40,793 bases of DNA from Gammaproteobacteria bacterium (GCA_024275935.1 JAJRYF010000126.1:1-40793); one strand, 5' to 3'; shown: positions 2,816-40,793, counted from the stretch's first letter. Numbers and translations are program-made. Notes: a model not told the origin generated them from the sequence alone.

Positions 2816-3653
2816 GCCTGAGTTTAGGATAGTTGAGACAGCTAAGGGTATGCAATGGATGGTTGAGGCCTGGGGATTTATGGGTGAGCATGGTAAGTCG
2901 TTATTCCGTGCCACACTGTTATTATTTTTGCTTTGGTCGTTGGTTAGAATCCCTGTTTTGGGCATGATTATAGGTGTCTTTGACCCGGTTTTTCGCGCTG
3001 GCCTATTGTTGGGAGTAGGGAGTGCACTAATGCGGCAAGCTGGTCCGCAGGCCACGAAAATCAATCTGCTGGATGCCTGGAAGCGCCCTGAGTTGCGTCA
3101 GCCGCTGATGTTGCTGGGTTTGGCGCTGATTGCGGTTTCGTTCTTATTTGCTGCCTGGGTGGCTGCTGATTTACAACTACTCCAGGAAGGTATAGCGGCA
3201 GGAACTTTGCCGGTAGAAGCTTTTCAGCAAGTCTTATTTGCTATCGCGGTAAATGTTTCATTGATAGGGGTTACGCTGTGGTTGGGCTTGCCGGAAATAA
3301 CCTTTCGTGGTGGCTCGCTAGTAACGGCAATTTCGCGGGGACTTCGGGCTACGCTAGCGAACTGGCGGGCATTAAGTATGCTGGGGTTATGGTTAGCCTT
3401 AGGAGCTATGGTGGCGCTCTTGGTTATAACAATGGTGACGATAATGCTACTAAATGTATTATCAGCAGTTCCGCTGGTTGGAATGATTGTATTGATACCA
3501 GGAGTATTTGTAGTGATTTACCTGATTGCCTTTATTTTTGTGCTGCAGTTTATCTGCTGGCGCGACATACTTTCGCCAGCAGGGACGAAGATGGACGCAG
3601 GTGTATCCAAGAATAACTCAGAAACCGAGACTGAAACCAGCGTAGTAGCCTAG
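2808..3653 (+). CDS. BPSS1780-type polytopic inner-membrane protein
   Basis: 281 residues. I start at ATG 2808, preceded by GGGAG at 8-9 bases; the frame is open further upstream, but that part lies inside the LOG gene. It has about five hydrophobic segments (roughly 37-57, 62-77, 108-130, 151-172, 200-260). The order and the soluble N-terminal and Ser/Thr/Glu-rich C-terminal tails match the BPSS1780 family of uncharacterised membrane proteins. No catalytic motif is visible. The stop codon overlaps the tatC stop on the other strand: CTAG at 3650-3653 serves both genes, leaving no room for an intergenic terminator. Confidence 0.75.
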   Translation: MSEPEFRIVETAKGMQWMVEAWGFMGEHGKSLFRATLLLFLLWSLVRIPVLGMIIGVFDPVFRAGLLLGVGSALMRQAGPQATKINLLDAWKRPELRQPLMLLGLALIAVSFLFAAWVAADLQLLQEGIAAGTLPVEAFQQVLFAIAVNVSLIGVTLWLGLPEITFRGGSLVTAISRGLRATLANWRALSMLGLWLALGAMVALLVITMVTIMLLNVLSAVPLVGMIVLIPGVFVVIYLIAFIFVLQFICWRDILSPAGTKMDAGVSKNNSETETETSVVA

Positions 3654-4417
3654 GGTTGTTCAGCGCGCTGTGTAACCAATACCCGTGAAAGTATTATCCC
3701 AATCTCAAATAATATCCACATCGGGATTGCCAGCAGGGTTTGCGAGATCACGTCGGGTGGCGTTAGTAACATCCCTAAAACAAATGCACCAACCACCACA
3801 TAGCCGCGCTTGGCAGCAAGTTTTTCCGGGGTGGTTACTTTTAACGCCACCAGAATGATAGTTGCTACCGGTACCTCAAAGGCCAGCCCAAAAGCCAGAA
3901 ATAAAGTCAATACAAAGTCCAGATACCGGGATATGTCAGTCATTACCGTCACCCCCTCGGGAGCAACTCTGGCGAAGAAACCAAACATTAATGGAAAGAC
4001 TACATAGTAAGCAAAGGCGCAGCCAGCATAAAACAGGATGGTGGAAGAAAATAGCAGTGGCCGAGTAATGCGTTTTTCTGCCTTATACAGCCCCGGGGCT
4101 ACAAATGCCCACAACTGGTAAGTGATAATCGGAATTGCCAGCAATAATGCCAGCATCAGGGTCATTTTGAATGGTGCCAGAAAGGGTGAGGCGACATCAA
4201 TAGCCACCATTTGCGAACCAGCGGGTTGGTGTGCCAATAAAGGCTCTGCCAGCAGCGCATATAGCTGACCTGAAAATGGTAACAGCACCAGCAGAATCAG
4301 CAATACCGCAAGGGAGGCTTTTAGCAGGCGTGAGCGCAGCTCAACCAGATGGCCGATAAAGCTCATTTCCTGGTTTTCTTCGGTTGCCGGGTTTGCGGGC
4401 TGTTCTAGTTTAGGCAT
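3650..4417 (-). CDS. tatC: Sec-independent protein translocase subunit TatC
   Basis: 255 residues with six predicted membrane segments, the normal size for TatC. The N-terminal cytoplasmic region with FIGHLVELRSRLLK is the conserved TatC signature and includes the glutamate that helps recognise the twin-arginine signal. Later conserved parts include YQLWAFVAPGLYKAEKR and a P-rich loop before the final helices. TatC is the receptor for folded proteins carrying twin-arginine signals. Its start overlaps the tatB end by 8 bp, completing a tatABC operon. MsrP at 32519-33460 is a likely substrate in this window. Confidence 0.97.
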   Translation of the reverse strand: MPKLEQPANPATEENQEMSFIGHLVELRSRLLKASLAVLLILLVLLPFSGQLYALLAEPLLAHQPAGSQMVAIDVASPFLAPFKMTLMLALLLAIPIITYQLWAFVAPGLYKAEKRITRPLLFSSTILFYAGCAFAYYVVFPLMFGFFARVAPEGVTVMTDISRYLDFVLTLFLAFGLAFEVPVATIILVALKVTTPEKLAAKRGYVVVGAFVLGMLLTPPDVISQTLLAIPMWILFEIGIILSRVLVTQRAEQP

Positions 4418-36725: not shown

Positions 36726-38141
36726 ATGTTTATTTATAGACCACTACTAATAGGCTCCATGTTGCTGGTATTAAACATCACCCAGCTAGCAGCGAAACCG
36801 GTACACCAGTCTTTTACTTCTTCGAATGGGGTGGTAGAGGTTTGCCGGGCATTGCCACCGATTCCTGATGGTGAGTACAAATCTAAAGATAGCCAGAGCG
36901 AGTCTGAGTACTGCCAATATGATTTGTATTCAGGAAATGTGGCAATGTGCCCAAAAACTTGGAGTACAAGCCCAGGGACTATTTTCTATTCAACCGCTGG
37001 GGGTGAATTTGCAGGGCGGGCGGAAGCTTTCGAGCAGCAGTGGTGTAGTAACACCAAGTCTCGCAATTTACCGGCTGAGAAAGTGGTCAAGTTCAAGACC
37101 ACTATGAATGGTCTTAAAACCAGCGCGACTTTTTCTCCAGCATCTTTACTGTATTACCATTTTTCTCGCTATTTTGACACGGTGGTTAAAATTCCGCCAA
37201 GCGTTTGGCGCAGTATCGACCGCAAGGAGCACCTACGCCGAGTCACGCGCAATGGAGTTAAATGGAGCTCGCACTCAAAAATGATTAATGCGGGCTGGGT
37301 AAAAATGGAGAAGGCTGAAGAAAATCCGGAATCCTACCGCCCCGCTGGGGAGTTATTTAGCCCCGATCGTAATACCATTTATGGGATTTTGATTAACTCA
37401 CCTGGGAGTCGCTACGGGGTCGAGTTTAACGGCACCAGGGAGTCCGGCTGGGGTGTGGGGCAAAATCTAGATTTTCAGAAAACTCCGCCATATCTGGCTC
37501 TGAGCAGTTCGGAGCCGCTGCTGGAAGCAATTGCCAGTGGTCTGTCGCAGGCCAGTAAAAACAGTAAATTACGCAAGGCCATTGGTAAGGGTTTTTCTGA
37601 GCTACAGATGACATTTTGGATGCAGGAACTCACCGAAATTACTTTGCTTGACTTTATTTTCAGCCAGCAAGACCGCATCGGTAATATTGATTACCGCTGG
37701 TATTGGTATTGGCTTGAAGGTGGAGAGTTAAAACATCGCCTGTCAAAAAGCAGAACAGTGCCCGAGGAGTTGGCTGGGTTTAAGCCACAACGGCTCAAAC
37801 GCACTTGGCTGAGTGATAATGATGCTGGTGGTAGAGTTGCTTATGTGAACTTTACCCGCAAGGCAAAAATGCTGGAAAAGCAGCGTCATTACAATCCTGA
37901 CTTATACAGCAAACTTCAGTCCCTTGCTGCCGATTTTAGAGACCAAGGAGAGGTCTATCAGTACTTGGTCAGCAGTTTCGGCTTGAATACTAGGCAGCTA
38001 AAGCAGATTGTCAGTAATACCCAGACTGCGGCGGAAATATTGCGTGGAAACTGTGTGGCGGGTCAGTTGCGCTTTGACTTAGATGCCACAGCTTTTGCTG
38101 TGAGTGGTGCGGCAGTGGAGCGGCGAGTTAGTTGTGAATAA
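36726..38141 (+). CDS. Exported protein of unknown function with atypical-kinase-like motifs
   Basis: 471 residues. I do not recognise it as a named family. Residues 1-23 are a signal peptide, and Cys40, 63, 75 and 107 suggest disulfides in the periplasm. The central part has an order seen in HipA/Fam20/PI3K-like kinase folds: a lysine strand EKVVKFKTT (K122), a helix then PP loop (SLLYYHFSRYFDTVVKIPPS, 140-159), a catalytic-loop-like DFIFSQQDRIGN (D316, N320) and a metal-site-like WLSDNDAGGR (D364, D366). This is a visual resemblance only. The next gene, a phosphoesterase, overlaps by 8 bp, suggesting a linked function. Confidence 0.6.
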   Translation: MFIYRPLLIGSMLLVLNITQLAAKPVHQSFTSSNGVVEVCRALPPIPDGEYKSKDSQSESEYCQYDLYSGNVAMCPKTWSTSPGTIFYSTAGGEFAGRAEAFEQQWCSNTKSRNLPAEKVVKFKTTMNGLKTSATFSPASLLYYHFSRYFDTVVKIPPSVWRSIDRKEHLRRVTRNGVKWSSHSKMINAGWVKMEKAEENPESYRPAGELFSPDRNTIYGILINSPGSRYGVEFNGTRESGWGVGQNLDFQKTPPYLALSSSEPLLEAIASGLSQASKNSKLRKAIGKGFSELQMTFWMQELTEITLLDFIFSQQDRIGNIDYRWYWYWLEGGELKHRLSKSRTVPEELAGFKPQRLKRTWLSDNDAGGRVAYVNFTRKAKMLEKQRHYNPDLYSKLQSLAADFRDQGEVYQYLVSSFGLNTRQLKQIVSNTQTAAEILRGNCVAGQLRFDLDATAFAVSGAAVERRVSCE

Positions 38142-39087
38142 ATTTCTGCGCTGTTACTGGCTTGCGCTACTATTATTGGTTAGTGCAACGGCCGAGGCTA
38201 GCAGTGTGCGACTGGTGGTTATCTCTGACTTAAATAGCAGTTATGGAAGTCTTACATACCCGCAAACTGTACCAGCAGCAATTAAGCGTATCCTTGAGCT
38301 AAAGCCGGACCTCGTATTGATTACTGGCGATATGGTAGCGGGTCAGCGTCCCTCGAAGCTTCTAAATGAGTTGGAGTTGACTGCAATGTGGGAGGTTTTT
38401 GAGCGTGTAGTAGCCAAACCATTACGCCAGGCTGGTATTCCGCTGCTGGCGGTAGCCGGGAATCACGATGCTTCAGCGGAACCGAAATTCAAGCGGGAGC
38501 GCAAGGCCTTCAACGACTACTGGCAATCACGCCAACCAAAGCTCCAGGCGGTTGCTAAAAATACCCCGCTACAATGGGCCTGGAAGCTTAATAATCTGAC
38601 AGTTGTGGGCGTGGATGCCACCCAGCATGGGCCGCTAAGGCCAACGGCTCAGCGTGATTGGTTAGTGCAAGCTCTCAGGGGCCTTAAGCCTGCCACCAGC
38701 GAGGTTATTGTAGTCGCCGGCCATTTACCGATTTGGGCCTTTGCCAAGGGACGGGAAAGCGGTATATTGAAGGATCCAGAGCTAGAGTTATTACTTTTGG
38801 AAAACGGGGTAGATGCCTATATCAGCGGCCACCACCACGCTTTTTATCCAGCTATTCATAACGAGTTACTGCAGTTTTCTATGGGCGCATTGGGCAGTGG
38901 TCGGCGAGCTTTGATTGGCAGTCGCAAAAAAGCACCAGCAAGTTTTCTGTTGATGGATATTGCTGTTAATGGAGAGTTTAGTTATCACGCTCTGTGGGGC
39001 AAAGGTTTTCGCCAGCAAATTAAGGTGGAGCAACTGCCGAAAACCATTCGCAGTAATGAAGTTATGTTGCTCCGTGCGGGCGGTTAA
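38134..39087 (+). CDS. Exported calcineurin-like metallophosphoesterase
   Basis: 317 residues from GTG 38134, which has GCGAG upstream and starts right at a signal peptide (to about residue 24); an in-frame GTG at 38104 lies inside the previous gene. Metal-site motifs are present in order: ISDLN, ITGDMVAG, AGNHD, AGHLPIWAF and SGHHHAF. The first reads D-x-N where most relatives have D-x-H. It should hydrolyse phosphoester bonds in the periplasm; the substrate is unknown. It overlaps the kinase-like gene by 8 bp and converges on the symporter gene, sharing TTAA (39084-39087) as overlapping stop codons. Confidence 0.88.
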   Translation: MNKFLRCYWLALLLLVSATAEASSVRLVVISDLNSSYGSLTYPQTVPAAIKRILELKPDLVLITGDMVAGQRPSKLLNELELTAMWEVFERVVAKPLRQAGIPLLAVAGNHDASAEPKFKRERKAFNDYWQSRQPKLQAVAKNTPLQWAWKLNNLTVVGVDATQHGPLRPTAQRDWLVQALRGLKPATSEVIVVAGHLPIWAFAKGRESGILKDPELELLLLENGVDAYISGHHHAFYPAIHNELLQFSMGALGSGRRALIGSRKKAPASFLLMDIAVNGEFSYHALWGKGFRQQIKVEQLPKTIRSNEVMLLRAGG

Positions 39088-40793
39088 TCTTCTGTCGGTG
39101 GATCACCCCATTTGAGCAGATTATCCATAATTGACCAGCGGGTGACATGCGGTGTCGCCCCTTCTCCCAAAATCCAGTAGGTATAGGCATGCTGAACTGT
39201 GCCAGTGGCTTTTTTGGCTACCAGCCAACGACCGAGGGTGGCGGCAAAATCATGTTGTCCTTTAGCTACGGCAAAGCCTAGGGGCATTTTTTTACGGGTC
39301 ATGCCAGCTGGGATTACAGTGGTGTAGTCCGGATAGAGCAGCGTCCAGGCGGTCCCAATTTCCACTTCAACTAAAAGCGCATCGTAGACACTGTCTTGTT
39401 GCTCGAAGAACTCGCGGAAATTAGTGATTTTAGTCCAGTTGACGGCATGTGTAGGATAGTTCCGGGTAACGGATTGCTTTATGTTTTCAACCGGCCCGGT
39501 ATAGGCAATTGAGAGCTTGCCAACTTCGCGCAGTGACTCAATGCTATTAAATTCGCTTTTGCGATAGTCTAGCACTACAAGGCTGAGTTCTCCGTCAAGG
39601 TAGGCATCGGAAAGGTCCACAACTTTTAGCATTTCCATAGACAGAGGAATTGTGCCCATCAAATCGATTTCGCCACGGCTCAACTGTTCTGGCAGAGTCT
39701 CAAAGCTGGTTGGAACAAATTCCAGACTAACACCTAACTCCAAAGCCAGCTCAGAAACCAGCTCTACATCGAAGCCCACCAGTTGGTCGTGGTCGTTAAA
39801 GAAAGTAAATGGCAGGCGCTTATAGTCATAGCCAACCCTGAGAACGCCAGAGTCGGAAATTTGTTGCATCACATTGGTGTGTGGGTCGAGTATCCGTCGC
39901 GGTAGAGCTTCTGGCAGGCCACGAATAACCTTGGTCTCTACCAGCGAATCTTCCAAATTCATTGAAAGAATCATTTTGTCTTTGGTATAAGCGGTGTCGA
40001 TACTGTAGGCAAGAAATACCTTGGTTAATAGTACCGAGGCAAACAAAATCACCAGGCTCACAAGCCCCAGCCGGAGTATCTTGAACATATTAAAGCGCAG
40101 GTGGCCGGTCAGGGCAGCAGTGCCGATTACCGAAAATGCCAGCAGGTTCATGGCCGAGACCATGGTATCGAACTTGCCGTTGATGATTCCGGTGGGGATA
40201 TATAGCTGGAATAAATCCTGGGGTAATTTCTGGTGATCGAGCAGGAATGGTAGGGCAACTTGCGCCTTGGCGAAATAACTCGCCAATCCCGTCAGCAGAA
40301 ACGATGGGTACTCATAGACTGCCATTGGCGTGCTCGACTGCCAGGCGACATATGGCACGAACAATAAAGAGAGTAACTTACCGGCATTTGGGAAGTTAAA
40401 AGTGACTGGTACGATTACTTCTGAGAGAGAATCTACATCATCTGACATCAGCCCGTAATCCCGATAAAGCTGGCGACTTGCCTCAATTAGCATTGGCAGG
40501 ATAATAAATACATTTTGGGTAATGAAGGCAGTAATTAACGCATCTTTGGAATAGCGGAATATATCCCGGTACTTGAAGGGTGTAAGGGTGCTTATTAGCA
40601 CCGGCATAACCCATAAAGACAGATATAGAGCAGCGACTATATATACTGCAAAATATACCTCTAACTTGCGAATATCTTCCAGAGTCATGGTCCCGGCGGC
40701 AACCGCAATAATTGCAAACACCCCAATTGGGGTAAGAGCAACCATGAATTTCGTGACTTTAGTCAAGGCATCAATTAGTACTCTGAAGCCATC
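39084..40793 (-). CDS. Dicarboxylate/amino acid:cation symporter fused to a periplasmic solute-binding domain (5' end beyond window)
   Basis: 569 residues are visible and the frame is still open at the right edge, so the start is missing. The first part (to about residue 265) is the C-terminal portion of a DAACS/SDF-family symporter: MVALTPIGVFAIIAVAAG, SKDALITAFITQN and VPVTFNFPNAGK are family blocks. From about 305, after a linker, comes an SBP_bac_3 domain: GVLRVGYDYKRLPFTFFN, LVGFDVELVSELALELGV and RGEIDLMGTIP. Joining a solute-binding domain to this secondary transporter is uncommon, because these carriers normally act without one. The substrate may be an amino acid or dicarboxylate. Confidence 0.85.
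   Translation of the reverse strand, partial: DGFRVLIDALTKVTKFMVALTPIGVFAIIAVAAGTMTLEDIRKLEVYFAVYIVAALYLSLWVMPVLISTLTPFKYRDIFRYSKDALITAFITQNVFIILPMLIEASRQLYRDYGLMSDDVDSLSEVIVPVTFNFPNAGKLLSLLFVPYVAWQSSTPMAVYEYPSFLLTGLASYFAKAQVALPFLLDHQKLPQDLFQLYIPTGIINGKFDTMVSAMNLLAFSVIGTAALTGHLRFNMFKILRLGLVSLVILFASVLLTKVFLAYSIDTAYTKDKMILSMNLEDSLVETKVIRGLPEALPRRILDPHTNVMQQISDSGVLRVGYDYKRLPFTFFNDHDQLVGFDVELVSELALELGVSLEFVPTSFETLPEQLSRGEIDLMGTIPLSMEMLKVVDLSDAYLDGELSLVVLDYRKSEFNSIESLREVGKLSIAYTGPVENIKQSVTRNYPTHAVNWTKITNFREFFEQQDSVYDALLVEVEIGTAWTLLYPDYTTVIPAGMTRKKMPLGFAVAKGQHDFAATLGRWLVAKKATGTVQHAYTYWILGEGATPHVTRWSIMDNLLKWGDPPTED

Follow-up and report, generated by a model that had tools for sequence, protein, structure and literature searches.

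The window analyzed here is the whole stretch of 40,793 nucleotides from a gammaproteobacterial genome, and near its end a kinase-like protein and a phosphoesterase are encoded by overlapping genes (Table 1). The remainder of the window is ordinary gammaproteobacterial housekeeping DNA (mreBC, mrdAB, dacA, lipA, priA, and argS), with a MoxR/BatD cluster and a molybdopterin/haem sulfoxide-reductase-type pair. Both reading frames stand as the initial annotation had placed them, and so does the 8-bp overlap, which results when the phosphoesterase frame is started at GTG 38134; with this start, a good signal peptide (VNKFLRCYWLALLLLVSATAEA) is predicted. Longer alternative GTG starts are present at 38104 and 38107. 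The convergent gene beyond the phosphoesterase, an SDF/SBP_bac_3 fusion, has family members near the kinase gene in at least six loci (the window, L021, L052, L058, L059, and L077), and it is a recurrent but not constant neighbor. An SDF symporter with a periplasmic solute-binding domain beside the kinase was seen in both gamma- and betaproteobacteria.

Table 1. Features of the kinase locus in the window; residue numbers are those of the kinase-like protein.
Feature	Position	Strand	Remarks
Putative exported Fam20-like kinase, 471 aa	36726..38141	+	ATG start; family without annotation
Predicted signal peptide, residues 1-23, MFIYRPLLIGSMLLVLNITQLAA	36726..36794	+	Read from sequence
STSPG turn, residues 80-84	36963..36977	+	Joins strands 72-79 and 82-89 of the model
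K124, strand lysine	37095..37097	+	Identical in 55/55; strand 118-125 of the model
Putative catalytic-loop segment, residues 309-322, DFIFSQQDRIGNID	37650..37691	+	D309, Q314-R317, G319, N320, and D322 invariant
DNDAG, putative metal-site motif, residues 364-368	37815..37829	+	Candidate counterpart of Fam20 LDNG
Predicted exported calcineurin-like metallophosphoesterase	38134..39087	+	317 aa from GTG 38134; open frame from GTG 38104
SDF symporter fused to SBP_bac_3 domain	39084..40766	-	Pfam SDF and SBP_bac_3; convergent with the phosphoesterase gene

The signal region of the kinase-like protein is strongly hydrophobic (KD12 2.45), a trait shared by every exported homologue, and is missing in one clade. 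The protein has six cysteines: the four early ones that had been pointed out together with the signal peptide (C40, C63, C75, and C107), and also C443 and C470. No Pfam or NCBIfam family was matched by the window protein, and its 55 homologues gave no Pfam match above chance in hmmscan with E up to 1. NgoBV endonuclease (E 0.1) and NlaIV (E 0.69), which appeared in the Pfam, NCBIfam, and PDB sequence searches, were chance matches. A match of the family profile to phosphorylase kinase gamma (E 0.0016) was rejected because C-terminal helices were aligned with its catalytic-loop region and the residues did not correspond.

At least 79 kinase loci were among the best 80 matches when 84,980 genomes were scanned once. 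More members are likely to exist, because the scan used only two degenerate peptide patterns and only the best 80 matches were kept. The matches listed cover Pseudomonadota, Bdellovibrionota, Acidobacteriota, Binatota, and Aquificota, and the Pseudomonadota loci belong to Rhodobacterales-type alphaproteobacteria, many gammaproteobacteria, and two Burkholderiales. Many loci are contigs of metagenome-assembled genomes (MAGs), and lone odd taxa, such as one Aquificaceae, may be binning errors. The distribution is patchy, with 9 of 299 genomes in a sample of the window's order and 3 of 274 in a class sample, the latter including one weak 54-residue match that is not counted as a relative. The kinase is a real, selectively conserved open family and not a chance frame. 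The plasmid and phage records searched held no relative, leaving a plasmid- or phage-borne cassette unsupported, and a search of viral structures found nothing. A partial homologue (L095, 3001-3492) comes from a short IMG/VR contig that is classed there as viral and is probably a stray bacterial fragment. At another locus (L081), tandem paralogues in overlapping frames (1434-2900 and 2827-4269) both carry the DRxGN and DND motifs; they may be a pair of kinases comparable to Fam20A/Fam20C.

Invariance was counted in an alignment of 55 diverse kinase homologues (A2). Residues K124, D316, R317, G319, N320, D322, D364, N365, D366, and A367 are identical in 55/55, as are S80, T81, S82, N128, H145, P157, D309, Q314, and Q315. 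The D-R-x-x-N motif (D316, R317, and N320) and the D-N-D motif (364-366) of the initial annotation are therefore both present and unchanged throughout. Its lysine strand (118-125) was placed correctly but the lysine was not: K122 is Lys in only 27 of the 55, and the invariant lysine is K124. With that shift, the lysine passes the conservation check together with D316 and D364. The proposed PP loop survives in half, since P157 is invariant and P158 is mostly Val among the homologues.

In the AlphaFold2 model, the STSPG turn joins the first two N-lobe strands and is a candidate nucleotide-binding loop. The strand of K124 lies between this strand-turn-strand and helix 138-150, a position as in a kinase N-lobe, and K124 is the candidate ATP-binding lysine. 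D316-R317-x-G-N320 follows helix 292-312, and D364-N365-D366 follows strand 355-361; this modeled order is the one expected for a catalytic loop and then a metal-binding motif. D316 is the candidate catalytic base and N320 a candidate metal ligand. DNDAG was equated with the Fam20 DN[GA] motif by order in the fold and in the sequence, and loop 367-372 at this site has pLDDT below 50. The ion-pair and metal-binding Glu of the N-lobe helix in Fam20C is Glu306, a residue altered in Fam20A. Helix 138-150, where that Glu would be expected, contains no invariant acidic residue in the 55 homologues, so this family either forms the ion pair at another position or lacks it.

The model of the window kinase was built from nine input sequences (pLDDT 85.5, pTM 0.86). 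Foldseek against the PDB placed Fam20 structures (Fam20C, Fam20A, and worm and hydra Fam20) at all of ranks 1-26, with a best E of 6e-5 for Fam20C/Fam20A and probabilities of 0.99-1.00. Structural realignment gave Z 16.6 for the Fam20B-like hydra Fam20 (4.1 Å over 287 residues) and 15.4 for zebrafish Fam20C, the Fam20 range being 16.6-14.1 over 279-292 residues. Other kinases followed, with PI4K II beta at 13.8, CtkA at 10.9, CotH at 9.0, and HipA at 8.6. Because of these Z values and a match list made up solely of kinase-fold proteins, there is little doubt that the predicted fold is that of a Fam20-type atypical kinase. The kinase resemblance first seen by eye is borne out by this confident model; among the families then named, Fam20 is the best fit, with HipA and CotH further away.

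The Fam20 relation was also approached by profile-profile comparison. Catalytic regions of Fam20 were taken from the PDB with a human Fam20C segment, confirmed by 5yh3, as bait, and four sequences were aligned. The sole match between the two families joined MQELTEITLLDFIFSQQDRI to a 20-residue Fam20 segment and scored 32; none of the 30 column-shuffled controls exceeded 22, and the reversed profile reached 12. The match is short and its stated probability low (15%); it falls on the catalytic segment, the DFLMGNMDR site of Fam20, and pairs D316 with the catalytic Asp of Fam20C (the D of DRHHYE). In hydra Fam20, the residue equivalent to D316, Asp299, is the catalytic base (PMC5865150).

The second gene encodes an exported phosphoesterase, as had been proposed: it matches Pfam Metallophos (PF00149, E 4.7e-18) and has the predicted signal peptide described above. 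Its motifs DxN/GDM/GNHD/H/GHHH are conserved in 58 paired copies and correspond in the window protein to D42-x-N44, GD76, GNH121D, H207, and GHHH242-245. The first of them (window 38227-38235) reads DxN in place of DxH in 57 of the 58 copies.

Co-occurrence of the two genes elsewhere, on which the proposed coupling depended, was found side by side across phyla. The window's order was sampled with 299 genomes: the kinase and the phosphoesterase (E <=1e-40) were present in the same nine and adjacent in 9/9, against 0/290 of the others (Fisher 2e-17). In the alphaproteobacterial order of G579, the Flavimaricola genome that holds L072, 244 genomes were searched, and the phosphoesterase was present in 12 of 14 kinase genomes and 0 of 230 others (Fisher 1e-18); since the genomes are related, both Fisher values overstate independence. 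Among the matches listed, 56 exported-type loci extend at least 1.5 kb to either side of the kinase, and in 51 of these the phosphoesterase lies within 1.5 kb. It usually lies downstream, overlapping or touching the kinase gene, and is divergent upstream in L066, L069, and L074. Pairwise distances of the two proteins are correlated (r 0.81, 56 pairs), which adds little in the absence of a neutral-gene yardstick. The genomes of some exported kinases (L014, L056, L068, L072, L075, L081, and L082) contain no phosphoesterase copy. The phosphoesterase is the usual, not obligatory, partner of the exported kinases.

The clade without a signal sequence, the non-exported Thiothrix clade, serves as a natural control. 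Six kinases, among them those of Thiothrix, two other Thiotrichaceae, and one Aquificaceae MAG, form one clade with support of 100/99. All keep the catalytic residues. Five of the six have replaced both C40 and C63 (by Ala/Leu or Ser/Val), and the remaining one (L057) has kept C40 and lost C63. No phosphoesterase copy was found in their genomes at E 1e-20, and their neighbors, mostly housekeeping-like, include none common among them. The joint loss in this clade suggests a possible C40-C63 disulfide and a tie of the phosphoesterase to export, although the clade is one evolutionary event and the correlation is one of a single case. Retention of the same residues where cytosolic ATP is at hand argues that the fold may be enzymatically competent.

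A third gene accompanies the kinase in about 45 of the loci listed, mostly immediately upstream; its product is exported and about 200 residues long. The carriers are mainly Rhodobacterales-type bacteria, and also Bdellovibrionota, Methylococcales, and Binatota; examples are L025 (3308-3952), L071 (5312-5965), and L066 (7401-8147). From its model (pLDDT 89.6; Z 12.9 to DUSP23, 12.0 to Siw14, and 11.2 to TpbA), we are confident in predicting a dual-specificity phosphatase (DSP) fold. Its P-loop reads HCxxGxH[AS], with the Arg of Cx5R changed to Ala or Ser in 28/28 aligned copies. In the 244-genome sample, the genomes with this gene are the 12 that have the phosphoesterase and no others. The genome G666 carries the full set of three genes twice, on contigs C12 and C36. 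In the window's genome, the gene was not detected (best E 0.12), so it is not part of the window cassette. Close to the cassette, many Rhodobacterales-type loci also encode a membrane protein, whose match to DUF4956 is weak and falls below cut-off, and an SdiA-regulated/phytase-like propeller; an example is L049 (7785-8588 and 8407-9432). Two apparent antisense neighbor families (3 and 6) were shadow ORFs of real genes.

We consider it fairly probable that the protein is an exported ATP-dependent Fam20-like phosphotransferase with the phosphoesterase as its counter-enzyme, or eraser; here we infer catalysis, donor, substrate, and direction. The kinase would be exported via the Sec pathway and held together by disulfides outside the cytoplasm. 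Its K124 and STS loop would bind the phosphates of the donor, probably a nucleotide triphosphate, with D316 as the base and N320 and D364/D366 holding a divalent metal. The substrate may belong to the envelope or the extracellular space and be either protein or glycan. The co-translated exported phosphoesterase would then be a dedicated counter-enzyme, most likely removing the phosphate that the kinase adds and, less likely, clearing the nucleotide product. In the Rhodobacterales-type bacteria and some others, the DSP-fold protein would probably be a reader of the phospho-substrate or a second eraser. A nucleotide donor is conceivable because periplasmic ATP in the micromolar range is reported in E. 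coli (PMC7432876). The donor is the weakest step, since no route is known by which ATP would enter the periplasm and many ATP-hydrolysing enzymes are present there (PMC7432876).

Scarcity of periplasmic ATP would also suit a protein that keeps the Fam20-like fold as an exported binding partner or scaffold for the phosphoesterase and transfers no phosphate, by analogy with Fam20A serving Fam20C. The absence of an invariant acidic residue from the helix of the Fam20C ion-pair Glu, the position changed in Fam20A, and the constant partnership with one enzyme point the same way. We nevertheless judge such a pseudokinase unlikely, for K124, D316, N320, D364, and D366 are invariant in 55/55, which is unusual for pseudoenzymes, and the cytoplasmic clade keeps the active-site set without the phosphoesterase. 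Sharing of regulation alone by two exported proteins without common chemistry is highly improbable. Overlapping genes can be coupled in translation without acting jointly, but this would hardly explain the strict co-occurrence in two orders, the retention of the pair while neighborhoods are re-arranged, or the absence of the phosphoesterase from the non-exported clade.

Two further readings concern the target. The enzyme might be a kinase of a small molecule, lipid, sugar, or metabolite, or a transferase of AMP or another group, whose product the phosphoesterase hydrolyses. PI4KII and CtkA are also strong structural neighbors, the top match, hydra Fam20, is a glycan kinase and not a protein kinase (PMC5865150), and the DUF4956-like gene, itself a weak match, and the phytase-like propeller follow in many Rhodobacterales loci. 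Fam20 structures nonetheless head the list and nothing points to a specific small molecule, and we think this reading rather improbable. A kinase released to act on other organisms, in predation or on a host or competitor, and not on its own envelope, would find external ATP available, and the family does occur in Bdellovibrionota and marine Rhodobacterales. Most carriers, however, are free-living or sediment bacteria, and no secretion-system or effector genes recur beside the kinase, which makes this quite improbable.

Taken more broadly, the proposed phosphotransferase and its eraser may represent an export-coupled write-and-erase module of at least four phyla, in which a Fam20-like kinase, a phosphoesterase, and sometimes a DSP-fold protein would act on envelope or extracellular proteins or glycans. 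We advance this tentatively, with the balance tipped slightly against it. If true, the animal secretory-pathway kinases would have in this module a bacterial counterpart, perhaps one related to them by descent, and something outside the cytoplasm would have to serve as a usable phosphoryl donor. A kinome survey called FAM20 eukaryotic- or Metazoa-specific (PMC9758233). Our literature search, with subscription papers and preprints outside its reach, found no report of such exported bacterial kinases. As to where the animal Fam20 enzymes came from, the family may be a prokaryotic relative, and it sharpens the question of periplasmic phosphate supply. Regulated phosphorylation outside the bacterial cytoplasm is testable in the culturable Shimia, Ruegeria, Roseovarius, and Thiothrix.

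Several known systems resemble parts of the cassette. Purple acid phosphatases are the nearest solved relatives of the phosphoesterase (TRAP5, E 9e-8) and share the Metallophos fold, but their Tyr ligand in GDxxY is replaced in the partner family, which has GDM[VI]A (GDMVA in the window). The third cassette protein shares the DSP fold with exported phosphatases of the TpbA/DUSP type, whereas the arginine of HCx5R is absent from it. Type II phosphatidylinositol 4-kinases are the second structural group but differ in being cytoplasmic, lipid-directed, and lower in Z than Fam20. HipA and CtkA are kinases of related atypical fold; the former is a toxin-antitoxin kinase of the cytoplasm, and Pfam HipA_C matched neither the window kinase nor the 55 homologues. 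CotH is a bacterial atypical kinase similar to Fam20C and a known bacterial relative of Fam20 (PMC12189002). A DUF4956 gene adjoins CotH in Pel loci (PMC7112168), comparable to the weak DUF4956-like match near the Rhodobacterales kinases. CotH is structurally more distant, however, and has other partners, and Pfam CotH found no match in the 55 members (hmmscan, E up to 1).

The closest comparison is with the Fam20 kinases, from which the window family is separate in the strict sense because of its DRxGNxD loop, the lack of the Fam20 disulfides, and the lack of a Pfam match. Identity to the window kinase is about 12%, and the loop reads DR[IVPF]GN[IVT]D in the window family and DRHH[YF]E in Fam20. 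The four conserved disulfides of Fam20 have no counterpart: the Fam20 cysteines lie between the VPP motif and the C-terminus, whereas the window kinase has no Cys between 107 and 443, and only C443 could correspond to one of them. Pfam Fam20C (PF06702) matched neither the window protein nor the 55 homologues, nor anything else in the genome, where a control search was equally silent and the result therefore carries no weight. The window family is also bacterial and paired with a phosphoesterase gene. In the metal motif, LD[NH][GA] of Fam20 stands against the invariant D364-N365-D366, matched by order only. The two groups are nevertheless alike in having a DFxxxxxDR catalytic segment and a DN[G/D] metal motif, and the action of Fam20 in the secretory pathway has its parallel in the signal-peptide export predicted for the window kinase.
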